Positions 607 through 14,209 of a stretch of 14,209 bases of DNA are shown piece by piece. The notes below the pieces were generated by a model that saw nothing but the letters and a program-made list of their open reading frames with translations, was not told the DNA's origin and made no database searches. The DNA is from JBFJWU01 sp041623475 [NCBI: bacterium] (GTDB lineage Bacteria > J088). Numbering within the stretch: position 1 is the stretch's first letter; every line of letters starts with the position of its first letter. The stretch is taken from the NCBI GenBank assembly GCA_041623475.1, contig JBFJWU010000045.1, positions 1 to 14,209 of the forward strand, read 5' to 3'. A program made the position numbers and the translations under genes.

Positions 607-1668
607 ATGACATTCGACACCGCAGCTCATATCGAATGGCTGGCAGCATTGTCGGCCGAGGGACGCGCTCCGGACCTGGATTCACGGGCCGCGAGGCTGC
701 TGGCCCATCAGCTTGAATTGTTCCCGGGATGGCAGCGATTACAGGGCAAACTGCCGGACCGAATCGAACCCGGACTGGTCAGGCCGTTCCCGGCCCGCCT
801 GTTCAAGTCAATGACACCGGCGACCGGCAATCGGGTCTTTTCAACCAGCGGAACGTCATCTGGTGAGCCCGGCCGCGTCGGTTACTCGCCAGCAGACATG
901 TCGGCAATGGATACAGTCATTGACATCAATGCGGGGGCAAGGCTTTTTCCTGATGGCCCGGGAATAACCCGTACCCTGGTACTGGCCCCGGACCCGGATG
1001 CCAGGCCACAGATGATCATGGCATACGGCATGCAGCGACTGATCGACCGGTTCAGTTCCGGCGGTCAATTCTTGATTGGCAATGAGGGCCTCGACGTGCC
1101 GGCGCTTACGGCGGAACTGGACCAGGCATGCGCTGACGATACGCCCTTAACGCTGATCGGCGCAACATTTGGATTCGTCCTCTTTGCCGATGCAATGATC
1201 GACTCGGGGCGTACATGGTCGTTACCGGCGGGAAGCCGCCTGATGGATGCGGGCGGCAGCAAGGGCCGGTCCAGGTACGTGTCACGGCGCGAGTTTACCG
1301 ATGTCATCGAGACTGTTTTCGGAATTTCGATCGACTGGCAGGTCAATCTGCTGGGAATGACAGAACTGGCTTCCCAATTCTACGACCACACTGTCGGGCA
1401 GGCCAACAACCGGCTGGGCATCAAGATCAACCCGCCCTGGACACGGACATGGGCCGTTGACCCCGACAGCCTTTTTGCGGTCGCAGACGAAGAACGCGGC
1501 CTGCTCGTTCACCTGGACCTTGCAAATATCGACCACCCGTCATTCATCCTGACCGAGGATATCGGCTGGACAACGGCGGAGGGATTTGTAATTGAAGGGC
1601 GGGCCACTGGCAGCGAGCTTCGCGGTTGCTCCCTGACCGTTGAGGAATTTTCCTCGGCTTCCCGATGA
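607..1668 (+). CDS. luxE-like: LuxE-type acyl-protein synthetase (fatty acid adenylating, acyl-transferring)
   Basis: 353 residues, close to the roughly 370 of luminous-bacteria LuxE. In that family the enzyme activates a fatty acid with ATP to acyl-AMP, takes the acyl group onto a cysteine near its own C terminus and hands it to LuxC. Seen here: an ANL-type phosphate-binding loop, FSTSGTSSGEPG (about residues 78-89); an A5-like motif, LLGMTELASQFY (about 248-259); TEDIGW (316-321) at the place of the A7 aspartate motif; and GRATGSELRGCSL close to the end. Cys341, 12 residues before the C terminus, sits where the acylated Cys364 lies in Vibrio LuxE, so the relay looks intact. The start follows the flavoprotein stop by 6 bp with no clear Shine-Dalgarno, suggesting translational coupling. 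The 3' end overlaps the LuxC-like start (ATGA). The chain length or type of acid cannot be told from sequence. Confidence 0.9.
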   Translation: MTFDTAAHIEWLAALSAEGRAPDLDSRAARLLAHQLELFPGWQRLQGKLPDRIEPGLVRPFPARLFKSMTPATGNRVFSTSGTSSGEPGRVGYSPADMSAMDTVIDINAGARLFPDGPGITRTLVLAPDPDARPQMIMAYGMQRLIDRFSSGGQFLIGNEGLDVPALTAELDQACADDTPLTLIGATFGFVLFADAMIDSGRTWSLPAGSRLMDAGGSKGRSRYVSRREFTDVIETVFGISIDWQVNLLGMTELASQFYDHTVGQANNRLGIKINPPWTRTWAVDPDSLFAVADEERGLLVHLDLANIDHPSFILTEDIGWTTAEGFVIEGRATGSELRGCSLTVEEFSSASR

Positions 1669-3023
1669 CCAATGATCAATCATTGACGATTTCGTGGGCA
1701 CCCCCCGGCTGCACGGCAGGGGACATTGCGGGCATGGGTGAATGGCTAAGGTCGGCTGGACAAAGGCTCCGTGCGTCGCGCTCTGTCGAACAAATAGCAG
1801 AAGTGCTGGATGCAGCTGCGGTCGAATGGATCGGCCGTGCCAACACCAGTGATGAGATCGTCAAAAAGGTTGCCGCGCATTCGGACCTTTCCCCCGAAAT
1901 GGTTGCCCGGTGCATTCGTGCCGAGCAAACCAGTTCGCGCAAGGACGACTTGATCCAGGCCCTGAATGCGGAACTTGGATCGGCTGCATGCCTGGATCAG
2001 TTCGTCTGGCAGCCCGGGCTGAATCGGCACATCCGAGCAACGGGACCAGGGCTGGTCCTCGCCATCCTGCCTGGAAATATCCCCGGGCTCAGCCACCTGC
2101 CACTGATGCGAAGCTTGTTGGTCAAATCACCGGTGCTCGCAAAAGCGGCCTCTGGCGAGCCGTATTACGCAGCTGCGTACGCAGAGTCCATTGCCCGGAT
2201 CGACCCCCTCGTTGGCGACTGTCTCGGAATTGTCCGCTGGCCAGGAGGGAATCAGGCAATTGAATCAACGGTCGCAGAAATGGCGGACGCGGTTATTGTC
2301 TATGGCGCCCGCGAGACGATCAAGTCCTGGAGAATGGTGGTGCCGCGCCCTAAGCCTCTGGTCGAACACGGTCATAAACTGGGATTCCTGATTGCCGATC
2401 CAACGTGGCTTGCTGCAGACCCGGATCGACTGGACGCCATCGCTCTGGACATCTGCATGTACGACCAGGCTGCCTGCCTGGCCCCGCATGTTGTCATCGT
2501 ATTGGGCGATCATGACGACTCGGAACGAGTTGGCAGGGACCTGGCGAACGCCATGGAACGATTGCACAAGCAACTACCATGTGGCGGCGACGTAACCGAT
2601 GCCAGGACAACCCGGCGCGCCTGGATCGACCAGTTTGAATGGGAATCTACCGGCGATTCGCGGATGTTGGCCAACGGCCCGTGGGGTGCTGTGGCGCTCG
2701 AAACCTCAGGACAAATCAAACCAACCTGCGGGCTGCGAACGATTGCTGTTGCGCCAGCCGGCAGTATCGCGGCCGCATTAAGCCTGCTTGCGGGTTGGCA
2801 GGACTGGCTTCAGAATGCCGGGCTGGCCGTCCCGGCCGAAGTCGCAAGGCAATTGGCGGTTGCGCTGGCCGACATGGGATGTACGCGTCTGGCGCCTGCC
2901 GGAGCGATGCCTTTTCCCAGCATGCGCTGGCACCATGATGGCAGACCCGCCTTGTCGGACCTTGTGCGGTTTACGAATGTTGAAGGTCCGGCGGAAGAAC
3001 CACTGGACACCCCCTGGCTGTAG
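1665..3023 (+). CDS. luxC-like: LuxC-type acyl-CoA / acyl-enzyme reductase (aldehyde-forming)
   Basis: 452 residues, slightly shorter than the roughly 480 of luminous-bacteria LuxC. The family belongs to the aldehyde dehydrogenase fold and reduces acyl groups, taken as acyl-CoA or from LuxE, to aldehydes with NADPH through a cysteine thioester. Seen here: GPGLVLAILPGNIPGLS (about 127-143), the conserved glycine- and proline-rich segment of the family, and CMYDQAACLAPH, where Cys271 (codon 2475-2477) is the probable catalytic nucleophile of the LuxC motif DQxACxxPH. The ATG overlaps the stop of the LuxE-like gene by 4 bases, so the two are co-translated. No luxA, luxB or luxD-type acyltransferase follows: the next gene is lgt after 98 bp. 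The product is therefore probably an aldehyde used for something other than light, though genes upstream of the window could change this. Confidence 0.9.
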   Translation: MTNDQSLTISWAPPGCTAGDIAGMGEWLRSAGQRLRASRSVEQIAEVLDAAAVEWIGRANTSDEIVKKVAAHSDLSPEMVARCIRAEQTSSRKDDLIQALNAELGSAACLDQFVWQPGLNRHIRATGPGLVLAILPGNIPGLSHLPLMRSLLVKSPVLAKAASGEPYYAAAYAESIARIDPLVGDCLGIVRWPGGNQAIESTVAEMADAVIVYGARETIKSWRMVVPRPKPLVEHGHKLGFLIADPTWLAADPDRLDAIALDICMYDQAACLAPHVVIVLGDHDDSERVGRDLANAMERLHKQLPCGGDVTDARTTRRAWIDQFEWESTGDSRMLANGPWGAVALETSGQIKPTCGLRTIAVAPAGSIAAALSLLAGWQDWLQNAGLAVPAEVARQLAVALADMGCTRLAPAGAMPFPSMRWHHDGRPALSDLVRFTNVEGPAEEPLDTPWL

Positions 3024-3986: not shown

Positions 3987-5096
3987 CTAAAACTCGGTCA
4001 TCGCCAATCTGGCTTTTTCCAGCCCAGTGTCAGTCAGTCGCAGGTCACCGTCGTCGATCTGGACCAGGCCGGCAGCACGCGCTTCATAAACGGTCCGACG
4101 AGTAACATCAGCATCCCAGGTCAGATGCTGGTGCAAGGTCGATACCCAGCGTTCTTCATCTCGCAGGTCTTTTGTTTCGTGGTGCAGCAAGTGGACCACC
4201 AACATTCGAATCCTTGCCCTCAACATTTGCTCACGCCGGCGATGCCATTTCGCAACGACACCGTACTCCGGGGCAATCAGGAAACCAACGGCAAACAGTA
4301 TTCCGGCAACCGTTGCCATGCTTCCGGAAATTGATGCGTCCAGGGCGTGTGCCATTTGATATCCCAGGATCGCAGCCGCGGCGCCGATCCCGGTCCCGGC
4401 CCCGATCATGACGGCCAGGCGGTCTGTGAATAACCACGCTGTTGCCGGCGGCGCAATAAACAGGGCGATCACCAGGATCGATCCAACTGCGTCAAAGGCG
4501 CCAACAACCGTTATTGAGACCAGTGCCATGAAGCTGTAATGAATCAGTGTCGGCCGGATACCCAACAGGCTGGCCAGCCCCTGGTCAAATGCGGCGATTG
4601 TCAGTTCCTTGTAGAACGCCGTGATCACGGCGATATTCAACAACAGAATCGCAGTCATTACCCACAGTGATTTGGGGCCAACGTCGGTCCCGGCAATGAT
4701 CATCCTGTCAAACGGTGCGAACGCCAGTTCTCCCATCAATACCGCATCCAGGTCCAGGTGCACGTGCCCTGCGTGTTGGGCGATCAGGATTACGCCGATA
4801 CTGAACAGGGCGGGAAAAACCAGTCCGATGGCGGCGTCCTGCCGCAGATTCCCTGTCTGGAAAATCGATTCAACCAGCCAGACAGTAATCACACCCATTA
4901 CAGCAGCGGCAACAACTAGCAGCGGCGAGGCCAGATCATGGGTAATAAAGAATGCAATAACAATCCCCGGCAGGATGGAATGACTGATGGCATCGGTCAA
5001 CATTGCCATCCGGCGCAATACCAGGAATGTTCCGGGAATTGCACATGCCGCTGCTGTAACAACCGCGATCAATTGGATTTCCAATTGCGGGGTCAC
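3987..5096 (-). CDS. troD-like: Metal ABC transporter permease (TroD/ABC-3 type) with C-terminal winged-helix-like domain
   Basis: The best start is GTG at 5096-5094, which overlaps the TGA of the preceding permease (GTGA), giving 369 residues. The frame is open to 5198, but the extra 34 residues are polar, overlap the neighbour by over 100 bp and do not resemble the family. About eight hydrophobic segments fill residues 1-280. VLRRMAMLTDAISHSILPG (about 25-43) is the ABC-3 permease signature, and GAFDAVGSILVIALFIAPPATA matches its second conserved region. The final 86 residues (from WHRRREQ, about 284) are charged and cytoplasmic-looking. They end in GLVQIDDGDLRLTDTGLEKA, the wing pattern of DtxR/MarR-type winged helices. 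Such tails are absent from classical TroD and ZnuB permeases. It should pair with the other permease as the membrane channel for Mn(II), Zn(II) or Fe(II). It is the last gene of the operon and converges on lgt. Confidence 0.92.
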   Translation of the reverse strand: MTPQLEIQLIAVVTAAACAIPGTFLVLRRMAMLTDAISHSILPGIVIAFFITHDLASPLLVVAAAVMGVITVWLVESIFQTGNLRQDAAIGLVFPALFSIGVILIAQHAGHVHLDLDAVLMGELAFAPFDRMIIAGTDVGPKSLWVMTAILLLNIAVITAFYKELTIAAFDQGLASLLGIRPTLIHYSFMALVSITVVGAFDAVGSILVIALFIAPPATAWLFTDRLAVMIGAGTGIGAAAAILGYQMAHALDASISGSMATVAGILFAVGFLIAPEYGVVAKWHRRREQMLRARIRMLVVHLLHHETKDLRDEERWVSTLHQHLTWDADVTRRTVYEARAAGLVQIDDGDLRLTDTGLEKARLAMTEF

Positions 5097-6229
5097 GGTT
5101 CCCGCGCAATTCGCGCACGGCGCTCTTCCAACGATCGGGCTATTTCGATTCCGGTCTCGGTCAACGCCCAGTGACTTGCGCCAACTCGTACCAGCCACCC
5201 CCGCGCCTCCAGCAATCCCAGCAGGTCATCCCGTTCGACCCGACCCATGTCGACGATTTTCACAAGCGCCAGTTCCCGTGGCTCAAACGGGTCCTCGTGC
5301 TGATTTGCCAGGTTAAAGAATGCCAGCAACAACTGCTCAACACGCACGCCGCTGCGACGCTGACGGATACGGATCCAGGTCCACACCAGCCCGCGACTGG
5401 ATCCGAATGCAAGGGACAGGACGACTGCCGCGGCCGCAACCAGGACAATCGCCGGGCCGGTTGGCATTCGTGCGGTTTCAGCACTTACCCAGGCACCCGA
5501 CAGGCCCGATATTGCGCCGATGGCCGCAGCGATTGCCACCATTGGCGCCAATCGGTCGGTCCACTGGCGTGCTGCAGCAGCAGGGGCAACGATCATGGCG
5601 CTCATCAGGACAACGCCGACGCTTTGCAGGCCAAGCACAACGGCCAGAACCAGGCAAGACATCAACGATGCATCCAACATTGACACCCGCCAGCCGAGAC
5701 CCTGGGCGTACTCCGGATCGAAACTGATCAGTTTCCATTCTTTCCAGAACAGTCCGGTCAGGATCATCGCCACAGCACCCAGGACGGCAATTGTAATGAC
5801 ATCGCGCTCCAACATGGTTGCGGCCTGTCCAAAAAGAAACTTGTCCAGGCCCGCCTGGGATGCATTGGGCATCTTCTGGATAAATGTCAGGACGACCAGT
5901 CCGAAGCCGAAAAAAACGGCCAGCACCAGCCCCAGGGCACCGTCATAGGCAATCCGGGTCCGTTTGTCAATCTGCGTGACCAACTGCGCTCCGAGCCAGC
6001 CGGTCAGGCCTGCACCGGTAAGAAGGACCATCAAGTCCTTGCGCCCCGTCAACAGGAATGCCAGGGCAACCCCTGGCAGCGCGCAATGGGACACCGCATC
6101 ACCCAGCAGGCTTTGCCGCCGCAGGACCGCGAACGACCCCAGGACGCCGCTGGTTGCTCCGATCAAAATGGTTCCCAGGCTGACCGTGCGGACGGTGTAA
6201 TCGAAAATCAGGTCGTGAAAGAAATCCAC
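5093..6229 (-). CDS. troC-like: Metal ABC transporter permease (TroC/ABC-3 type) with C-terminal winged-helix-like domain
   Basis: The start was chosen at GTG 6229-6227, 7 bp after the ATPase stop, giving 378 residues beginning VDFFHDLIFDYTVRTV. This matches family N termini, where a DYTxRT segment follows about ten residues. TTG 6262 and GTG 6259 are in-frame alternatives that would overlap the ATPase gene by up to 26 bp. No clear Shine-Dalgarno decides among them. Seen: ABC-3 signature GSFAVLRRQSLLGDAVSH near residue 30; multiple membrane segments; and LQSVGVVLMSAMIVAPAAAA, the second conserved permease region. The last 96 residues or so (from WTWIRIRQRRSG) are hydrophilic and end with GWLVRVGASHWALTETGIEIA, a winged-helix wing like that of the partner permease. 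The two tails resemble each other in position and in the LTxTGxExA motif, which suggests descent from one ancestral tailed permease. The stop overlaps the GTG of the next gene. Confidence 0.93.
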   Translation of the reverse strand: MDFFHDLIFDYTVRTVSLGTILIGATSGVLGSFAVLRRQSLLGDAVSHCALPGVALAFLLTGRKDLMVLLTGAGLTGWLGAQLVTQIDKRTRIAYDGALGLVLAVFFGFGLVVLTFIQKMPNASQAGLDKFLFGQAATMLERDVITIAVLGAVAMILTGLFWKEWKLISFDPEYAQGLGWRVSMLDASLMSCLVLAVVLGLQSVGVVLMSAMIVAPAAAARQWTDRLAPMVAIAAAIGAISGLSGAWVSAETARMPTGPAIVLVAAAAVVLSLAFGSSRGLVWTWIRIRQRRSGVRVEQLLLAFFNLANQHEDPFEPRELALVKIVDMGRVERDDLLGLLEARGWLVRVGASHWALTETGIEIARSLEERRARIAREP

Positions 6230-6236
6230 TGGACAG

Positions 6237-7019
6237 TCATTCGTTACTGTGGCTGACACCAAGGCCAGGAATAAAGGCGGTTCGTCCGCCGTAGGTTGCC
6301 CTTAATCGTTCCTCGGTAAATACGGTCGCAACGGGTCCTGCCGCAATACAGCGAACATTCAACAATGCAACCTGGTCAAAGTATTCGGGAACCGTCTGCA
6401 GATCGTGATGAACGACAACGACGGTCTTTCCGGCTGCCCGCATATCCTTCAAAAGGGCGACGATTGCTCGCTCAGTAACTGCATCGACACCCTGGAAGGG
6501 CTCATCCATCAGGTACACGTTTGCGTCCTGAACCAACGCACGCGCAATCAATACGCGCTGTTGCTGGCCCCCGGACAGTCGACCGATGTGACGCCCGGCG
6601 AATGCCTCCATTCCGACCCGCTCCAGCGCCTCCAGAGCCTGCAGGCGTTCCGCCTTTCCGGGGCGGCGGATCAGGCCAAGAGCGCCATAGGACCCCATCA
6701 TCACGACGTCGAGGACGTTGACAGGAAAATCCCAATCCAACCCGGACCGCTGGGGAACATAACCAACCAGCCCCCGTTGCTCATCAATTTTGCGTCCGAA
6801 AATATAGACATGGCCGGCAAGCGGCTTGATCAGGCCAAGCAACGTTCGAATCAGCGTCGTCTTGCCAGCACCATTTGGTCCAACGATGGCCATCAGGATC
6901 CCCGGCGGAACATCCAGGTCAATATCCCAAAGAACCGGCTGCTCCTGATAGGCGACGGTCAAGTCTTCAATGTGGATCGCTGTTTCCGCCGAAGGAACAT
7001 GCGGATGCCCGATTGTCAT
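6237..7019 (-). CDS. troB-like: Metal ABC transporter ATP-binding protein (TroB/MntB type)
   Basis: 260 residues, full length for this family. It energises the two permeases by ATP hydrolysis at the cytoplasmic face. Motifs in order: Walker [10 protein letters not shown] (about 48-56), Q-loop [14 protein letters not shown] (the FPV and tryptophan pattern is typical of Mn/Zn/Fe chelate-type ABC-3 systems), signature LSGGQQQR, Walker [13 protein letters not shown], and H-loop VVVVHHDL. All catalytic residues are present. The ATG at 7019 lies 4 bp after the stop of the binding-protein gene, and the 3' end lies 7 bp before the preferred permease start, so the genes are one transcription unit. Nothing unusual is seen in the protein itself. 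Confidence 0.96.
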
Positions 7020-7023
7020 CCTG

Positions 7024-7962
7024 TCACGGTCCCTGATGGCCCTTTAGTGCACCGGAAATGGTAGAAACGTTATGACGGACCATCTCAACGTAGGTACCAC
7101 CCGGACCTCCTGGCTCGCCCAATGCGTCAGAAAACAGGCTGCCACCGACCTTGACATCGCCGCCTTTTGATTTGACGGCCTGGCGCAAGGCCTCTACATA
7201 GCGCTCGGGGACGGTCGTTTCGACAAATACTGCCGGAATTTCCCGGTCGGCGATGAAAGCTGCAAGGTCCTGGACGTCGGCGGCACCTGCTTCGGACGCG
7301 GTGCTGATGCCCAAAAGTCCGCGAACCTCCATCCCATAGGCGCGCCCGAAATAGCCAAACGCATCGTGGGCAGTGACCAGAACCCTGACCGGTTCCGGGA
7401 TCAGCTCGACCTGCTGTCGAACCCACTGATCGAGCGTGCCCAGTTCCGAAATAAAATCGGCGGCTCTGGCCCTGTATCCGTCAGCGTGGGCCGGATCGAG
7501 CTCTGAAAGTCGTTCGGCCAGGTAGGCGACCCCCTGGCTCCAGAGCGACACATCAAACCAGATGTGGGGATCGTTGTTTCCAGGGTAATCGGGAAACGCC
7601 AGCAACTGCCCTGCCGGAATTCCTGCGGTAATAGCGACGGTAGGCTTGCCATTCTCTGCCATCCGGGCAAAGATTTCGACCATCTTGCCTTCAAGATGCA
7701 GGCCGTTATAGACAACGATATCAGCCGCCGCCATTCGCGAGACGTCACCCTCGCTGGCCTTGTACAAATGCGGATCAACACCTGCACCCATCAGGGCGGT
7801 AACCTGGACATCGTCGCCCCCCAGTCGGCGCACGGTGTCGGCAACAATATTTGTCGTCGCCACGATCTTTGTCGCCGCGCCCGTTTCCGTTGCAACCGGC
7901 TTACCAGCCTTGTCACATCCTGCAGCAACGACCACAACAGCCAGTAAGATCCTAATGGGCAT
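7024..7962 (-). CDS. troA-like: Metal-binding lipoprotein of ABC transporter (TroA-like, cluster A-I)
   Basis: 312 residues from the ATG at 7962, preferred over the ATG at 7971 because AAGGA lies 8 bases before it, whereas the first ATG touches that sequence. This periplasmic protein captures the metal and delivers it to the permeases. The N terminus has Arg4, a hydrophobic stretch and VAAGC with Cys16. That is an acceptable lipobox, although Ala rather than Leu is at -3. The four metal ligands fall at His65 (DPHLYKAS), His133 (DPHIWFDV), His199 (AHDAFGYF) and Asp279 (FSDALGEPG). The last three match Treponema TroA numbering exactly, and the first corresponds to TroA His68. There is no His-rich loop of the ZnuA kind between the first two ligands. 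This favours a TroA/Mn-type function, but Zn cannot be excluded, since TroA binds both. The gene overlaps the regulator gene by 11 bp. Confidence 0.95.
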
Positions 7963-8641
7963 ACGATTCATCCTTGGGTAAGGTTACGTGGACACAGGCC
8001 GCCAGTGCGCGACCAATCACGTGCTGGTTTGACTGGATTTCAATCGTCAACGGACCATCCAGCGGCTCCTGCCTTAACAGACGCACGTGGGCACCCGGAT
8101 ACATTTGCAGGTCACCCAGATAACGCAGGACATCGCCGTCCTGATTACGAATCCGTGCGACGATTGCGCGGGCTCCGATATCAATTTCCGTCAACGGCAC
8201 CAGGTCTCGCTTGACGATCGTGCCATCGCGATCCGGAATCGGGTCCCCATGGGGATCGTGCGTTGGGTGTCCAAGGACTTTGTCGATTCGGTCTTCAAGC
8301 TCCTCAGAAATGACATGTTCGAGCCGTTCCGCCTCCTCGTGAACCTGGTCCCATGGCACGTCCAGGGCTTCGGCCAGGAACAGCTCGATCAGGCGGTGGT
8401 GGCGAATGACTTCTAATGCGATACCTTCGCCCGCCGGTGCCAGTTCAATGTGCTTGTAAGGCTCATAACGGATTAATTTAAGCCCTGCCAGCTTCTTCAG
8501 CATACCGGTCACAGAGGCCGCACGAACGCCCAAATGATCCGCGATTGCGGACGTAGTCACCTGGTCACCGGCTTCCTTCAGGGCATAAATTGCCTTCAGG
8601 TAATCCTCAACCGCACGGGTGTTCAATTCTTTGCCAGGCAT
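7952..8641 (-). CDS. mntR-like: DtxR/MntR-family metal-dependent transcriptional repressor with C-terminal FeoA/SH3 domain
   Basis: 229 residues, three-domain DtxR architecture. There is an N-terminal winged HTH (about 7-75: TSAIADHLGVRAASVTGMLKKL). A metal-binding dimerisation domain follows (about 76-140, ending LGHPTHDPHGDPIP), then an SH3/FeoA-like domain (about 150-225). Aligning with Corynebacterium DtxR by a constant offset of 3, the ligands map as His79 to His82, Glu83 to Glu86, His98 to His101, Glu105 to Glu108 and His106 to His109. DtxR Met10 and Cys102 are replaced by Asp13 and Glu105. Asp and Glu at these two places are the mark of Mn(II)-responsive MntR/SloR-type members; the extra MntR ligand Glu11 is Lys16 here. 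It is the first gene of the uptake operon, so it probably represses its own transcription and that of the transporter when metal is abundant. A DtxR-type box lies over its promoter. No Shine-Dalgarno precedes the ATG. Confidence 0.95.
   Translation of the reverse strand: MPGKELNTRAVEDYLKAIYALKEAGDQVTTSAIADHLGVRAASVTGMLKKLAGLKLIRYEPYKHIELAPAGEGIALEVIRHHRLIELFLAEALDVPWDQVHEEAERLEHVISEELEDRIDKVLGHPTHDPHGDPIPDRDGTIVKRDLVPLTEIDIGARAIVARIRNQDGDVLRYLGDLQMYPGAHVRLLRQEPLDGPLTIEIQSNQHVIGRALAACVHVTLPKDESYAH
7971..7975 (-). promoter_or_regulatory. Ribosome binding site deciding the TroA-like start
   Basis: AAGGA on the minus strand lies 8 bases before the ATG at 7962 and directly next to the ATG at 7971. 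The spacing supports the inner ATG as the true start of the binding lipoprotein. Confidence 0.6.
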
Positions 8642-8659
8642 TTTTTTAGTTTAACCTAA
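8641..8659 (-). promoter_or_regulatory. DtxR/IdeR-type operator overlapping the -10 box
   Basis: Minus strand TTAGGTTAAACTAAAAAAA resembles the 19-bp DtxR box TTAGGTTAGCCTAACCTAA at about 14 positions. The core 8646-8659 is an inverted repeat, TTAG-N6-CTAA, with the inner TTAA also symmetric. It covers the -10 and the predicted start site, so repressor binding would block RNA polymerase. The most likely ligand is the regulator encoded just downstream (autorepression). Confidence 0.6.
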
Positions 8660-8676
8660 TAAAAAATTTTGGTCAA
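8648..8676 (-). promoter_or_regulatory. Predicted promoter of the metal regulator/transport operon (leaderless)
   Basis: Minus strand: -35 TTGACC at 8676-8671 (5 of 6 to TTGACA), a 17-base spacer, and -10 TAAACT at 8653-8648 (4 of 6 to TATAAT). Six A residues then lead straight to the ATG at 8641, so the expected start site seven bases after the -10 is the A of the start codon. This fits the absence of a Shine-Dalgarno and suggests a leaderless transcript. The AT-rich tract between the boxes is typical of a sigma-70 promoter. Confidence 0.55.
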
Positions 8677-8681
8677 TTTTC

Positions 8682-8697
8682 TTAGGCGTTTACCTCA
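8682..8697. promoter_or_regulatory. Possible second regulator site in the divergent region
   Basis: TTAGGCGTTTACCTCA is an imperfect inverted repeat whose outer halves are TTAGG and, on the other strand, TGAGG. The TTAGG half is the same as in the operator over the regulator promoter. It lies between the two divergent -35 boxes. It could be a weaker second site for the metal regulator; the spacing differs from the first box, so this is tentative. Confidence 0.25.
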
Positions 8698-8722
8698 TCA
8701 TTTGGTCCCGCACACAACAAAA

Positions 8723-8738
8723 TTGACATGCCAGTCAA
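8723..8738. promoter_or_regulatory. Inverted repeat over the -35 box (candidate operator)
   Basis: TTGAC-ATGCCA-GTCAA has perfect 5-bp arms around a 6-base centre and includes the whole -35 hexamer. A dimeric repressor could bind here, but five-base arms are short, one of them is simply the -35 consensus, and no regulator for it is encoded in the window. Confidence 0.3.
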
Positions 8739-8751
8739 CTTATGGGATAAC
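8723..8751 (+). promoter_or_regulatory. Predicted sigma-70-type promoter of the MaoC-like hydratase gene
   Basis: TTGACA (8723-8728, perfect -35), 17-base spacer, GATAAC (8746-8751, 4 of 6 to TATAAT). Transcription would start near 8758 and give a 5' leader of about 50 bases ending in a strong Shine-Dalgarno. The promoter is divergent from that of the metal operon, with 46 bp between the two -35 boxes. Confidence 0.55.
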
Positions 8752-8792
8752 GAATAACTCAATCGCTATTATTGAATTCAAGACGCACAATC

Positions 8793-8799
8793 AAGGAGG
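8793..8799 (+). promoter_or_regulatory. Strong Shine-Dalgarno deciding the hydratase start
   Basis: AAGGAGG lies 7 bases before the ATG at 8807. The open frame extends upstream to 8669, but the extra 46 codons would cross the promoter and regulator sites and do not look like protein, so 8807 is the start. Confidence 0.85.
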
Positions 8800-8806
8800 C
8801 AATCCG

Positions 8807-9667
8807 ATGCCGATCGATGCGGAAAAGGCGCTTGCCGCCACATTTGAAGGAATGGAATCCAAGTTTGACGAATCTGACGTCATTCTTTACGCGCTCGGAA
8901 TCGGCGCCGCAGCGGAAAACCCAACGGATCCAGGACAACTGAAATACGTCTACGAAAACGGACTTCAGACGCTGCCGACGTTCGGTGTAGTTCCGGCGTT
9001 TCCGGCACTGTCTGTTGCGATGACGGCCCCGGGTATGGAGTTCAATCCGATGATGCTGTTGCACGGAGAACAGTATCTGGAAATCAACAAATACCCGATC
9101 CCGACGCGCGGCACACTGACCACAACGCCATCGATTTCGGCCATTTATGACAAAGGGAAAGGCGCCCTGGTTTATCTGGATGCCGTGACTACGGATGAGA
9201 AAGGCGAAACTGTCTTTACGAACTCGTTCGGAATTTTCCTTCGCGGCGAAGGCGGCTTTGGCGGTGAACGCGGTCCCGAGCCGGGCAACGAACCGCCAGA
9301 TCGGGAGCCGGACGCGGTGCGTGAAGAGAAAACAGCCCCCAACCAGGCGCTGATCTATCGCCTCAGTGGTGACCGAAATCCATTGCATGCCGATCCCAAT
9401 TTCGCAGCAATGGGCGGGTTTGATCGACCAATTCTGCACGGCCTGTGCTTTTTTGGATACGTGGGACGTGCAGTCCTTGAAGAGTTCTGCGACAACGACC
9501 CGACCAAATTCAAGTCCATCAAAGTCCGGTTCGCCAAAAGCGTCTTTCCCGGCGAAACAATCGTCACCAAAATGTGGAAAGAGGGCAACAAGGTCCTGCT
9601 GGAAGCCAGCACCAAGGAACGTGGCGAGGCCGTCATTACCAACGCAGCCGTCGAAATTAACGAATAA
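8807..9667 (+). CDS. MaoC-family (R)-specific enoyl-CoA hydratase (hydratase 2 type, double hot-dog)
   Basis: 286 residues, the size of the two-hot-dog hydratase 2 unit found in peroxisomal multifunctional enzyme 2 and its bacterial relatives. These enzymes add water to trans-2-enoyl-CoA to give (R)-3-hydroxyacyl-CoA in the cytoplasm. Seen here: the N-terminal half with [11 protein letters not shown] (about 24-34); the linker [11 protein letters not shown]; and the catalytic hydratase 2 motif [17 protein letters not shown] with Asp189 and His194, followed by [20 protein letters not shown]. All catalytic residues of the C-terminal hot-dog are kept. It is a single-gene unit with its own promoter and terminator, so its partners are not shown by context. 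Beta-oxidation, a modified fatty-acid cycle or supply of hydroxyacyl-CoA are all possible. The C terminus is complete, and no dehydrogenase or SCP2 domain is fused. Confidence 0.92.
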
Positions 9668-9694: not shown

Positions 9695-9732
9695 ACAAGG
9701 GTCGCCGGGAACGGCGGCCCTTGTTGATTTTT
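9695..9732 (+). terminator. Rho-independent terminator after the hydratase gene
   Basis: ACAAGGGTCGCCG (9695-9707) pairs with CGGCGGCCCTTGT (9712-9724) as a 13-bp stem with a single G-U wobble, closed by a GGAA tetraloop. The tail TTGATTTTT follows. It begins 27 bp after the hydratase stop. The upstream side has T rather than A residues, so it should act in the plus direction only. Confidence 0.9.
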
Positions 9733-9749
9733 GGCGAAAAACCTATAAA
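9721..9749 (+). promoter_or_regulatory. Weak candidate promoter of the Ig-like lipoprotein gene
   Basis: TATAAA (9744-9749) is a good -10 with TTGTTG (9721-9726) 17 bases upstream. That -35 is poor and lies in the descending arm of the terminator. A second -10-like TAAACT at 9767-9772 lies 8 bases before the ATG but has no -35. Which is used cannot be told from sequence. Confidence 0.25.
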
Positions 9750-9780
9750 AACGTCGTTTGCTCTGCTAAACTGTGACCAT

Positions 9781-12549
9781 ATGGACGGACTGATTAATCG
9801 TGCCCGATTTGTTTCCGCGTTCGCGGTGCTGGCGGGCATTCTGCTGGCAGGCTGTAATAACGGAAAGCCGCTACCAATCCTGCCAGATTCCTGCGTACTG
9901 ACCGTCACGCCGGATCCCTCAGTTGGAAACGCACCGGTTTCGGTCAGTGCCACCGCCGTCGACCCCGAAACCGGCCTGTCCGTACCAGTGCCATATGTGT
10001 TGGAATCCAGTCCCCTGCCTGCGGACCCGGTGACGCAGGCCAGCGACCCTGTGACAGTTGCCAGCGGGCCGCCAAGCCCGGGGGCATTTCCAGATGACGG
10101 AATTAGCCTGGGCCAGGGCATCCACGCGATGCTCATTGGTAATCCTTGCAGCAAGGATTGGTTCCGCTACGAGTGGGCTGTTGACCTGATCGCACCAATC
10201 GTTAGCGTCGATCCTGATGGTGGATACTTTCGCGAAGATGTAACGATACAAATCGGTGTTGATGATGTCAGTGCGCAGTTGGCTACGCGTTTCTATTTGA
10301 GCGGAAGTGTCGCCCCGGAGTTTGCCGTACCCGGGTCGACCGAAATTATCCTTGACAACAGCGGCGAATGGATCGTCGAAGCACAGGCAACGGATCCGTA
10401 CGGGAATGCTTCATCCACCGCAACCGCGACCATACAGCTGGACACACTCGCACCAGCGCTTATCGGGTTTGACGTCAGCCTTTTGTCCGGCGGCGAAGTT
10501 GGCCTGTACCCCCGGATTACGCTGACATTTGATCGACCAATGGACCAGACTGTCGATATGCTGGCCGACGCGGTAACCTTTTCATCTGGGTCGCCGGACC
10601 CAAGGAACCTGATGTTGATCTGGAACAGTGGGACGGTCGCACATGCCTGGCCGGACCAGCGGCTGACAAGTGGCGAAACCGTCTGGGTTGATGTTTCGGC
10701 TCTTGCAGGCGCGTCCGGATCGCCGCAGACGCCCGGACCTGTCAACAACGTGCAAACAGCGGTCGTTTGCAGCACCTGCACTAATACCGCGTATCAACTT
10801 GAACTTCTACCTGGTGACCATTTCGTACCGGCGACAGAAGGACAAACCGCATTCAGGTTTGACGTTAATCCACCGGCACCGGATTCGACAATATTCAGCG
10901 TTTCGGCATTTGGAAACGATGGCGACAGCACAACACTTACATCGGGGCTGGAAAACTGGTCGATCACGGATCGTTTCGGAGACGGTTCCAGTTTTGAAGT
11001 TACGGTTTCGGCAGATGCATTCGGCCAGGTTTTCTATTCGCCGGTGCTGGTGTGGGTCGTTGCCGGACAATCGTCGATTCGCCACTATGCGACCGGTATT
11101 TCTGCCGGGCTGGCAGTGTTTCCCGCGGCACCGATGTTGCTGTCGACCCACCCGTCGACCGATGTCTCATTGGCCCCGGTGCAGGCTATCGATCTGGGGT
11201 TCAACGTGTTGATGAACCCGGACTCGGTCCAGGACGGATCAACGCTGCTCATCAACGGCATCCCGGGATCATTTGACGCTTTTGGCATCCCTGATCCGGC
11301 CGCGAATATCGTCCGGATTGAACCTTTGCAGAACCTGGAATCAGGTGATCTGGTCCAGTTTACGGCGGGGGCCACGGTCGAAGACGTTTGGGGACGCAGC
11401 CTGGGTGTAACGACATTCGTCGAATTCACGGTCGAAGGTCTGGATACGGTCGACCTGTCCTACACCTGGAACCGTGCGGATGGCAGTTCAGTTGACCTGG
11501 GAGCTGGTACAGTCATCCTGGCCGGGTACGTTGAACCGCCCGTAACCGGCATCAAACAGGCCGATTTGGTTCACGTATCGAGCGGGCACACCTTCCCGCT
11601 GATCGACAGCATTGTCAGGACTTCCGGCACGAGACATCGAAGCCAGGGCGCAAGCTCGTGGGTGTCGTTGTCGATAGCTGACGACGCACCCCAGCTTCCA
11701 GACGGCGGATACCGCGTGGAAATTACTCCTGACAGGACGTTGGACGGTAGTTCGGATCCGGCCATGTCCGTCGTGTCGTTGATCTACGATCCAGACGACG
11801 TTTCGCCGTCGTTGATCCCGGAACAACCAACCGGGCGGGGCGTACTGTTGACGCGCGAAGACGGCACGCTTCCAGGCCCGATTCAGGCGCGTGTCAATGA
11901 CCCCCGGCAACTGGCCCTTGATCTTGAACTCTTGCCAGACATTGGTATCGGGTCGGTTCAGGTAACGACGGTCGTTCCATATTTGGATCAGAACATCTAC
12001 TTTTATTCCAGCGCCAACACATCGATCTACAACCTGTTAACCAACGCTCCGGCCGTTACCGGACCCGGGGCCGAGGCCAACATTGATGCCTCGATCACAG
12101 GAGACGGTATCCGGGTCGACCGAACGCTGCAGACGTTTGCACCCAACCAGATACCCCAGCCCATCACGCCAACCGCCGGCGCACGTTATGCAGCTACGGA
12201 CTATGTCGAATTCTCTTGGAGCCTGACCGATGACACTGCATTTGATGCGCTGCGGCTCCAGTTTTTTTACAACGAACCCACCACCGTGTATACACGTTGG
12301 ACGGACCTTTATACAGTCCTGCCTGGAACACGAAACTTTTTGTTGCCGGTTTTTGCATTTCCGCGACCCGTCAGCGGCCAGGGGGCTGGTTTGGGCACGC
12401 CGGTATCAACCGCAACGTTCAACTGGATTATAACCGGCGTGAAGTCCGGCGCTTCGCCGCACAATCCGCTAGAGCTTGGTTGGGACCCGACTGCCCTGGA
12501 AAGTGGAACCGCGGTCGGTCGACCCGGCGACTTTACGATCGATTATTAA
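9781..12549 (+). CDS. Large secreted lipoprotein with bacterial Ig-like (Big_5/SbsA-type) domains
   Basis: 922 residues from the ATG at 9781; the frame is open back to 9721 but those codons overlap the terminator. The N terminus MDGLINRARF, then a hydrophobic core and LLAGC, is a textbook lipoprotein signal with Cys near residue 22. Lgt and signal peptidase II should process it, leaving it anchored in a membrane. The rest is exported and beta-rich. About residues 134-220 (APIVSVDPDGGYFREDVTI to ATDPYGNAS) resemble a chitobiase-C-like Ig domain. About 221-310 contain LYPRITLTFDRPMD, the Big_5 signature. About 450-565 form a second Big_5-like domain (LSTHPSTDVSLAPVQAIDLGFN, then LESGDLVQFTAGATVEDVWG). 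Residues 790-922 form a further Ig/fibronectin-like fold (TPTAGARYAATDYVEFSWSL). CSTC near residue 330 may form a disulphide. No catalytic motif is seen. An adhesive or scaffold role at the cell surface is a guess. Related secreted genes are common in large-genome Gram-negatives. No Shine-Dalgarno is visible. Confidence 0.85.
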   Translation: MDGLINRARFVSAFAVLAGILLAGCNNGKPLPILPDSCVLTVTPDPSVGNAPVSVSATAVDPETGLSVPVPYVLESSPLPADPVTQASDPVTVASGPPSPGAFPDDGISLGQGIHAMLIGNPCSKDWFRYEWAVDLIAPIVSVDPDGGYFREDVTIQIGVDDVSAQLATRFYLSGSVAPEFAVPGSTEIILDNSGEWIVEAQATDPYGNASSTATATIQLDTLAPALIGFDVSLLSGGEVGLYPRITLTFDRPMDQTVDMLADAVTFSSGSPDPRNLMLIWNSGTVAHAWPDQRLTSGETVWVDVSALAGASGSPQTPGPVNNVQTAVVCSTCTNTAYQLELLPGDHFVPATEGQTAFRFDVNPPAPDSTIFSVSAFGNDGDSTTLTSGLENWSITDRFGDGSSFEVTVSADAFGQVFYSPVLVWVVAGQSSIRHYATGISAGLAVFPAAPMLLSTHPSTDVSLAPVQAIDLGFNVLMNPDSVQDGSTLLINGIPGSFDAFGIPDPAANIVRIEPLQNLESGDLVQFTAGATVEDVWGRSLGVTTFVEFTVEGLDTVDLSYTWNRADGSSVDLGAGTVILAGYVEPPVTGIKQADLVHVSSGHTFPLIDSIVRTSGTRHRSQGASSWVSLSIADDAPQLPDGGYRVEITPDRTLDGSSDPAMSVVSLIYDPDDVSPSLIPEQPTGRGVLLTREDGTLPGPIQARVNDPRQLALDLELLPDIGIGSVQVTTVVPYLDQNIYFYSSANTSIYNLLTNAPAVTGPGAEANIDASITGDGIRVDRTLQTFAPNQIPQPITPTAGARYAATDYVEFSWSLTDDTAFDALRLQFFYNEPTTVYTRWTDLYTVLPGTRNFLLPVFAFPRPVSGQGAGLGTPVSTATFNWIITGVKSGASPHNPLELGWDPTALESGTAVGRPGDFTIDY

Positions 12550-14209
12550 TTAATCCAGCCGCCGGACAACAATCTGGCTGCCGATTGCCTGGTCATCGTA
12601 TAACCCACCAGCAAACACCTGGCCACTGGATGCCAGCAACTGGACGCCGGTCAGATTTGCTGCAGCGGCACTCGCATCGGCGGCGATGAACACCGGCTTG
12701 TTACGATCCGAAATGTCATAGAAATAGACTCCGTTACCGCGACCCTGCAGATGGACCGCCAAAATGTCATCAGCCGCATCCAGGTCAAGCGTATCTGGCG
12801 GAAACGACGCCGGGAACGGCACTGAAAATTCCATCATTGCCGGGCCCGAACCAGCCAGCGAATACGCCCGTACACTGACCTGTTCTGCTCCAGGGGATCG
12901 GTCGGTCACGTACAATCGGTCCTGATCACAGGTAAAGGCGGTCGCGACGGGTATCGGCAATTGCCCCCAGATTTTGGCCGACCCGTCATCCCGGATCCAT
13001 TCAAATTGTCGCAACCCGTTAATGGACCGCCAGGCCAATAGTCCGTCCGGACAGGACTGGACCTGCTGATACTGGCCAGGAACGGTGGCTGACATCTTTA
13101 CCAGATCCGAGCCGCTGAAGCGGTACATGTCGATTCGGCGGTTGTCACCACTGATCACCGCGGCCCGATTTCGAGCGGCGTCAATAGCGAGGGACTCAAT
13201 TGCAACAGACCGCGTAATCAACGTCGCAACTGTGGGATATCCCTGACCGTCCACATCCACCCAGGCAATCTGGGCATCATTGGCCAGCATCACCGGTGTC
13301 CGCTCAACGGCATCAACCGCGAGGCGAAAGAATGCCGATGGCAGCGAAACGGTTGCTCGCGGCCCGGGTTGGATACCATCGGCAGATCCAGAAAAATCAG
13401 CGGTATCAAAAACCGAAACCGAGTCGACACCCAGCCCCCAGACTCGATCCGCGCCCGCCAGGTGAACACCGCTGAATGTGGCCGGCACGGCGAGCGGCGG
13501 CTCGACCCGGCCCTTGTCCAGGCGCATCAGGCGGACGAATTCACTCCCCAACGTCTGACCAAATGTCCAGAGTTCCCCTTGGCCGCCGCCAATGAACTCA
13601 AACGCGGGAAACCCGGACCAGCATCCGGTCAGGTCATTCAACTGGTCCGTGGGTGTCAGTTTCTTGTTTTTCCGGTTCTCAGGCAGGCATTTATTGTCGG
13701 TGTACGGCCAATACCGGGTTATGCCGTGACTGTAATCCCAGTTGTCCGGCTGCATGCGCAATACGGCATCCTGGTTCCCGTATGCAAAATCGGCAATGAA
13801 CAGATCAGTGCCTTTTCGTTTCACATCAAAAAAGAAATCCACCGGATCGGGCCGGGTTTCAAAATTGAATTCGGCATAGAAATGGGTCGCCAATGTCACC
13901 TGGCTGACCGATGCGCCGTACCTCATGTGGAATTGGGCGGCCCCCTGGTCACCCATCGCAACATGCCACGTCACTTCATTCGGGCCGGTAATCGCGTCGA
14001 CCGCGACAGCCAGCCTGTTTGCGCCGGGTGTCGCCCGGGGCAGGTCAACATAGATGGCCTGGGGCTCTGCACCGGTTTCCTGAAACGGTTTCAAATCATA
14101 AATCATGAACGATCCGGTTTTTGCGAGGCCCAGAAATCGATCGCCGGCACACGCCAGTTCCTCGACATTGCCTTCGGGCACAACTGCCAGTTCGTTGCCG
14201 CTGCCATCA
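12550..14209 (-). CDS. Beta-propeller-like protein with LVIVD-like repeat, probably secreted (5' truncated by window)
   Basis: The frame is open to the right edge, so at least 552 residues are present and the start lies beyond 14209; the internal GTG at 14181 is not the start. The protein is a run of beta-strand repeats with FMIYDLKPF, VSVFDTADFSG, IDMYRFSGS and YFYDISDRNKPVFIA. The last is the LVIVD pattern of seven-bladed propellers in exported proteins. Sparse cysteines (CLPENRK to LTGCWSG, QSCPDG, FTCDQD, LACAGD) would fit an oxidising compartment. No membrane segment or catalytic motif is visible. Export is inferred from the repeat type only, since the N terminus is missing. Its stop codon abuts that of the Ig-like lipoprotein on the other strand. 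The pair may be functionally linked as cell-surface proteins, but this is a guess. Function unknown. Confidence 0.75.
   Translation of the reverse strand, partial: DGSGNELAVVPEGNVEELACAGDRFLGLAKTGSFMIYDLKPFQETGAEPQAIYVDLPRATPGANRLAVAVDAITGPNEVTWHVAMGDQGAAQFHMRYGASVSQVTLATHFYAEFNFETRPDPVDFFFDVKRKGTDLFIADFAYGNQDAVLRMQPDNWDYSHGITRYWPYTDNKCLPENRKNKKLTPTDQLNDLTGCWSGFPAFEFIGGGQGELWTFGQTLGSEFVRLMRLDKGRVEPPLAVPATFSGVHLAGADRVWGLGVDSVSVFDTADFSGSADGIQPGPRATVSLPSAFFRLAVDAVERTPVMLANDAQIAWVDVDGQGYPTVATLITRSVAIESLAIDAARNRAAVISGDNRRIDMYRFSGSDLVKMSATVPGQYQQVQSCPDGLLAWRSINGLRQFEWIRDDGSAKIWGQLPIPVATAFTCDQDRLYVTDRSPGAEQVSVRAYSLAGSGPAMMEFSVPFPASFPPDTLDLDAADDILAVHLQGRGNGVYFYDISDRNKPVFIAADASAAAANLTGVQLLASSGQVFAGGLYDDQAIGSQIVVRRLD

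Follow-up and report, generated by a model that had tools for sequence, protein, structure and literature searches.

The window (the whole 14,209-nt stretch of DNA that we analysed) carries five genes on its minus strand, which run downward from position 8641 and overlap or almost abut: a DtxR/MntR-type metalloregulator of 229 amino acids (7952–8641), a ZnuA-type metal-binding lipoprotein (7024–7971; Pfam PF01297), an ABC transporter ATPase (6237–7019; PF00005) and two ABC-3 metal permeases (5093–6262 and 3987–5198; PF00950 in both), each with a C-terminal extension. The Pfam domains occur in the order Fe_dep_repress, Fe_dep_repr_C and FeoA, then ZnuA, ABC_tran, ABC-3 and ABC-3, with PF01297, PF00005 and two copies of PF00950 as in a ZnuA/MntC-type ABC metal-uptake operon, and all five genes of the metal operon proposed by the initial annotation are backed by Pfam. 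The regulator, which was also identified by profile and structure matches, contains DNA-binding (PF01325, 4e-16), metal-binding/dimerisation (PF02742, 4e-31) and SH3-like FeoA (PF04023, 5e-17) domains, all above the cut-off. As it scored 220.9 bits against the best curated equivalog, NF047407 (MntR), which has a cut-off of 350 bits, we call it DtxR/MntR type and assign it no exact equivalog or metal on this basis. By eye, an AAGGA lies 8 nt 5' of an ATG at 7962 in the binding-protein gene, and this ATG may be its true start. The permease extensions of approximately 95 residues (5093–5395 and 3987–4280) gave nothing over the Pfam cut-off (the second had AAA_assoc_C at 0.0023 and HemN_C at 0.015 below it, whereas the first had no hit); these tails resemble a winged helix by eye, and tblastn matches in two relatives (L003 and L019) span both of them. 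Elsewhere in the window, LuxE-like and LuxC-like (acyl-CoA reductase) genes adjoin at 607–3023, and 9721–14181 holds an ORF of 942 codons that contains a Big_5 domain and, on the opposite strand, one of 543 codons without a Pfam match.

Ahead of the regulator gene, the minus strand carries a −35 hexamer TTGACC (8671–8676; five of six matches), followed at a spacing of 17 nt by a −10 hexamer TAAACT (8648–8653; four of six), six A residues and the ATG (8639–8641), so spaced that the first T of TAAACT stands 12 bp 5' of the A of the ATG, on which transcription is predicted to start. A scan of 8500–8900 on both strands returned this promoter-like site (9/12 matches) and no other, as the initial annotation had described it, and no plus-strand promoter for the divergent gene rose above the scan threshold in the same interval. 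Also in agreement with that annotation, none of the Shine–Dalgarno motifs AGGA, GGAG or GAGG was found at −18 to −4 before ATG 8641; a TANNNT approximately 12 bp before a start with no Shine–Dalgarno is, at the level of sequence, the signature of a leaderless (TA-led) gene. The DtxR-type box that had been placed over the −10 was recovered at 8645–8660 as the palindrome ATTAGGTTAAACTAAA (minus strand, arms ATTAGG and ACTAAA around a central TTAA), a putative DtxR/MntR-type operator which begins 7 bp ahead of the −10, encloses the whole of it and scores 10/12 against the family box TTTAGGNNNNCCTAAA. Reading upstream in frame from ATG 8641, the stop codon TAA that forms the first half of the −10 is met before any start codon, and this ATG is therefore the most upstream start possible; we favour it by approximately four to one over an in-frame TTG at 8624–8626, its rival as the start. 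The first 40 nt of the predicted transcript fold weakly (−2.2 kcal/mol; z +2.2) and the first 70 nt fold like shuffled sequences (z +0.4).

The promoter by itself is not above chance, with one site found against 0.4 ± 0.6 in shuffles of 8500–8900. To assess the combination of features, the 166 nt upstream (8642–8807, including the first base of the ATG of the divergent gene) were put through 20,000 dinucleotide shuffles, and a −10 lying 5–9 nt before the start was counted as leaderless geometry. A promoter with this geometry arose in 0.86% of the shuffles, a box of at least 10/12 in 1.2% and both in 0.02%, and the corresponding values for the last 60 nt were 1.3, 1.6 and 0.015%, all of these being percentages for a geometry and thresholds chosen once the site had been seen. 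In the window as a whole, the same geometry occurs at one of 72 ORF starts, that of the regulator itself, and at one of 760 ATG/GTG triplets.

The conservation of the box was examined in relatives of the regulator locus, taken as the best 80 of 577 loci from one scan of genome contigs and making 81 with the window. When scored over −200 to +45 around the aligned start against TTTAGGNNNNCCTAAA, the box reached at least 10/12 in 32 of the 81 loci (approximately 0.5 in shuffles) and 11 or 12 of 12 in 12 of them (none in shuffles); the consensus was derived from the same loci and the count is thus partly circular, although the margin is large. Scores of 8/12 or less were found in 38 of the 81 loci, including 11 from Balneolota, where our guess is that the regulator is perhaps away from the promoter. 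Matches to all four transporter genes lay downstream in 11 of the 81 loci, the window included, one of which (L038) is counted on a contig that ends there, its second permease match falling on the first permease; in two other loci (L064 and L067) an Nramp transporter comes next after the regulator. As the downstream genes differ where inspected, the box appears, on these comparisons, to travel with the regulator gene through many phyla rather than with one transporter. A second box within the regulator gene of the window (8595–8610; 10/12) was rejected as an extra operator: it sits on the conserved E-D-Y-L codons, and its scores over the same 81 loci fit the expectation from synonymous codons (four loci against 2.0 expected at a score of 10, and 15 against 17.0 at 9). 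A fused regulator–Nramp protein in L067 was likewise discarded, since the long ORF is not in the frame of the regulator and matches only Nramp in Pfam, and a 973-codon ORF in L045 without a Pfam match was taken as spurious. In a Calditrichaeota genome (G002; C304:365-1749 and C109:21-1402), the frame directly after a regulator match is longer (393 and 368 amino acids respectively) and holds a second DtxR-like stretch of 32–34% identity.

The distance from a −10-like hexamer to the start was then counted, for gaps of 0 to 79 nt and with several starts per locus permitted, in the 42 loci (among the best 80 of 577 plus the window) that have a box of at least 9/12 and an ATG or GTG start. Gaps of 6 and 7 nt were found in seven and eight loci respectively, or 15 of the 42, against a mean of 1.4 loci for the other 78 gaps, the highest of which was six loci at a gap of 18. 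Three of these 15 loci have a hexamer at gap 6, yet were not labelled leaderless, in two cases (L019 and L037) because there is a better promoter upstream and in the third (L076) because the hexamer goes with a GTG further downstream. The 12 that remain are the window, two Caldilineaceae loci (L048 and L080) and nine from Actinomycetota; weaker additions to the leaderless group are L071 (gap 8), L075 (gap 9) and L079 (a CATAAC seen by eye, below the hexamer threshold). The resulting labels, 15 leaderless and 20 leadered, are our own and leave 46 of the 81 loci unlabelled, among them seven with a box (L005, L012, L027, L038, L061, L063 and L076). AGGA, GGAG or GAGG preceded the start used in none of the 15 leaderless loci and was present at some candidate start in nine of the 20 leadered ones, this strict rule leaving 11 of the 20 without a Shine–Dalgarno.

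The two Caldilineaceae promoters, TTGACG-17-TATGAT-6-ATG (L048) and TTGACA-17-TATAAT-6-ATG (L080), have the layout of the window. The position of the box relative to the −10 varies: in ten Actinomycetota loci among the best 80 it begins 11–12 bp before the −10, so that its right arm overlaps this hexamer, and in L048 and L080 it begins 5 bp past the start of the −10, with the ATG at the centre of the box. A GTG occupies the same place within the box in L011 and L057. In these four relatives the box thus lies across the predicted leaderless start codon (L048, 5976–5991; L080, 162–177; L011, 4421–4436; L057, 5970–5985), and the operator bases over the start codon also encode the first residues of the protein, M-A-K, M-T-K, M-P-K and M-S-K respectively. 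The ATG of L076 is also within a box, with no qualifying −10 ahead of it.

When the 81 proteins are placed on a tree, the leaderless label, which covers mostly Solirubrobacterales and their kin, requires five changes, at least three of them forced by well-supported branches, against a mean of 11.5 when the labels (46 of the 81 rows being unlabelled) are shuffled; it is therefore clustered, yet has been gained or lost several times. The deep nodes of this tree are weak and its bootstrap support unsettled. The window pairs with L001 (97/94) and falls in a group that has weak support and contains 19 rows, 12 leadered ones among them. Ten relatives among the best 80 have transporter genes downstream, and none of the ten is clearly leaderless: seven read as leadered (L003, L006, L013, L014, L018, L019 and L020), a box is absent from L008, L038 has a 12/12 box but no promoter at the scan threshold, and L001 has no box of at least 9/12 near its start. 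With seven of the ten read as leadered and three unreadable, the layout of the window looks derived among the transporter-bearing relatives, as judged from their sequences. It was not found in L001, the closest of the relatives listed. The ATG of L001 at 5986 is instead preceded, at a distance of approximately 110 nt, by a palindrome, GTTAGCCATAGCTAAT (5859–5874), and then by a frame of 13 codons that opens at GTG 5941 after an AGGAG, stops 3 nt short of the ATG and is possibly a leader peptide or coupling device. Comparison nevertheless supports both the leaderless start and the self-repression that had been claimed for the operon, in that the box is kept in the family and the 6–7 nt gap without a Shine–Dalgarno recurs in separate lineages; both the start site and the repression stand as predictions.

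Start signals were also examined genome-wide. Among 23 genomes searched, the nearest to the window was G001, with an Lgt 64% identical (41% for the next genome); the best match in G001 to the divergent hydratase was only 27%. In 80 sampled contigs of G001, Shine–Dalgarno motifs were enriched, preceding 89 of 350 ORFs where control positions gave 23 and 30, and TAnnnT at −13 to −11 was not clearly so (6 of 230, against 1–6 in eight controls; 3 of 168 under other ORF rules), in a test weakened by uncurated ORF starts. In 19 pooled Actinomycetota loci, the Shine–Dalgarno count stayed at control level (26 of 126, against 23 and 28); TAnnnT was found in 5 of 83, against 5, 1, 0, 0, 0, 0, 0 and 1 in the controls, a count that is suggestive of leaderless use although the nearest control is equally high. 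The earlier description of such a start as unusual in many bacteria is thus fair for the lineage of the window, in view of the G001 counts, but needs qualifying, as leaderless genes are reported to be common in Actinobacteria and Deinococcus-Thermus in the excerpted text of a genome-wide survey (PMC3160421) and the acuR operon described below is a precedent. In that text, the first T of the TANNNT of TA-led genes stands approximately 12 bp before the start, in the window exactly 12; the TA-led genes differ in that they are a genome-wide sequence class with no operator.

The features of the locus are best explained, with a probability of roughly 0.68, by an operon for the uptake of manganese or iron whose promoter is autoregulated, with an mRNA that is leaderless from ATG 8641 and repression through the box. 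As the best account of the sequence features and their recurrence in relatives, we infer from these the start site, the binding, the metal and the repression. When metal is scarce, RNA polymerase would begin on the A of ATG 8641, giving a leaderless mRNA whose 5'-terminal AUG would serve for translation of the regulator, while each transporter gene would be translated from an internal start site of its own. When metal is ample, a metal-loaded dimer of the regulator on 8645–8660 would cover the −10 and silence both the transporter and the regulator itself. The best solved-structure match of the regulator is PDB 8pvt, named 'Iron dependent repressor, putative', which we take to be DR2539 of Deinococcus. 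In our own reading of the alignment, the Lys of V-E-D-Y-L-K in the window protein occupies the place of the corresponding Lys of DR2539, presumably the position of Glu11 in MntR, the numbering that we adopted for the ligands. This match and this Lys lead us to expect Mn(II) or Fe(II) as the metal that would load the dimer. In the excerpted account of DR2539 of Deinococcus radiodurans (PMC3327659), it is an Mn(II)- and Fe(II)-dependent repressor in which Lys replaces Glu11 of MntR and which binds an inverted repeat in an Mn(II)-/Fe(II)-dependent manner; like the window regulator, it has the SH3-like domain. It differs in that it represses mntH, and that text describes no leaderless or self-repressed promoter.

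Three other explanations were weighed against a leaderless start at ATG 8641. Translation might instead begin at TTG 8626 on an mRNA from near 8641 with a 15-nt leader, the 5'-terminal ATG being incidental or minor. Many leadered relatives (e.g. L003, L004, L006 and L007) have their ATG or GTG exactly at the position aligned with this TTG, and its product would begin M-N-T-R-A-V-E-D-Y as theirs do. However, TTG is a weak start in general, no Shine–Dalgarno precedes TTG 8626 by eye, and L001, which lacks a start codon at the aligned position, begins four codons upstream, so that the lineage carries an N-terminal extension; we consider translation from the TTG unlikely. Somewhat less probable still is a true promoter further upstream giving a leadered mRNA, with TTGACC-17-TAAACT a chance match in AT-rich DNA. 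The frequency of such promoters in shuffled DNA and the seven leadered loci among the ten transporter-bearing relatives speak for it, whereas 8500–8900 offers no other site at the same threshold, neither candidate start has a Shine–Dalgarno and the box sits on TAAACT.

The box could, finally, be the site of another regulator or no operator at all, the operon then not being self-repressed, a reading compatible with any position of the start site. The window box scores 10 rather than 12 of 12 and its role as an operator is a prediction, but the same box is found before the regulator gene in many phyla, with varied genes downstream where inspected, and we regard this as the least probable of the three.

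The architecture is already known in kind. The cI repressor of phage lambda is translated from a leaderless mRNA made from PRM and exerts negative self-control through a site on its own promoter, although this is a phage system that also activates itself and involves no metal. The acuR-acuI-dddL operon of Rhodobacter sphaeroides, which is leaderless and self-repressed (PMC3017554, excerpted text), is a complete precedent from a different regulator family. There, as in the window, the repressor gene comes first, there is no Shine–Dalgarno and an inverted repeat, in the window a putative operator, lies on the promoter; the transcript starts exactly from the AUG and the repressor acts on itself, as is predicted for the window; the differences are that AcuR belongs to the TetR family and is acrylate-induced, and that the start, mutants and translation were measured in that system, the window being known from sequence alone. 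By sequence, the window thus has an acuR-like design, regulator first and operator overlapping the promoter, with a DtxR-family regulator and hence no TetR-family AcuR member. In the same text, the leaderless first gene is translated at approximately 7.5% of the level of the next gene (PMC3017554), and by analogy leaderless translation may keep the regulator of the window operon low relative to the transporter. Closer to the regulator itself, DtxR of Corynebacterium diphtheriae belongs to the same superfamily, and according to the excerpted text of PMC5784534 the genes that it represses have their sites over the −10 or beyond the start, its repression is attributed to covering of the −10, the hexamer that the putative operator of the window also covers, and 20% of the genes are leaderless; for dtxR itself, that text mentions neither a leaderless start nor self-repression. 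In the open-licence PMC literature, by titles and the beginnings of abstracts, no leaderless gene for a DtxR/MntR-family regulator was recognised.

That expression of the operon might depend on the state of the ribosome, as had been suggested, is speculation; such an effect would directly touch no gene but that of the regulator, and, according to the excerpted text of a review (PMC9031893), other laboratories did not reproduce the control of leaderless mRNAs by MazF. Tentatively, and with the odds against it, the merger of −10, operator and start codon could be a repeatedly evolved, selected design in the DtxR/MntR subfamily, in which leaderless translation would hold the repressor low and leave the transporter well made, and in which the operator over the start codon would dictate the first residues of the protein in some lineages. 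What is new is the prediction for the window operon together with the recurring pattern in relatives, including operators over the start codon. A metal regulator would thereby join the repressors for which a leaderless, self-repressed operon is predicted, and would do so in a lineage where Shine–Dalgarno signals predominate in the closest genome among those searched. The relatives form a natural series of one regulator with leadered, leaderless and operator-on-start-codon promoters, which would allow the effect of leaderless translation on the feedback loop to be compared.
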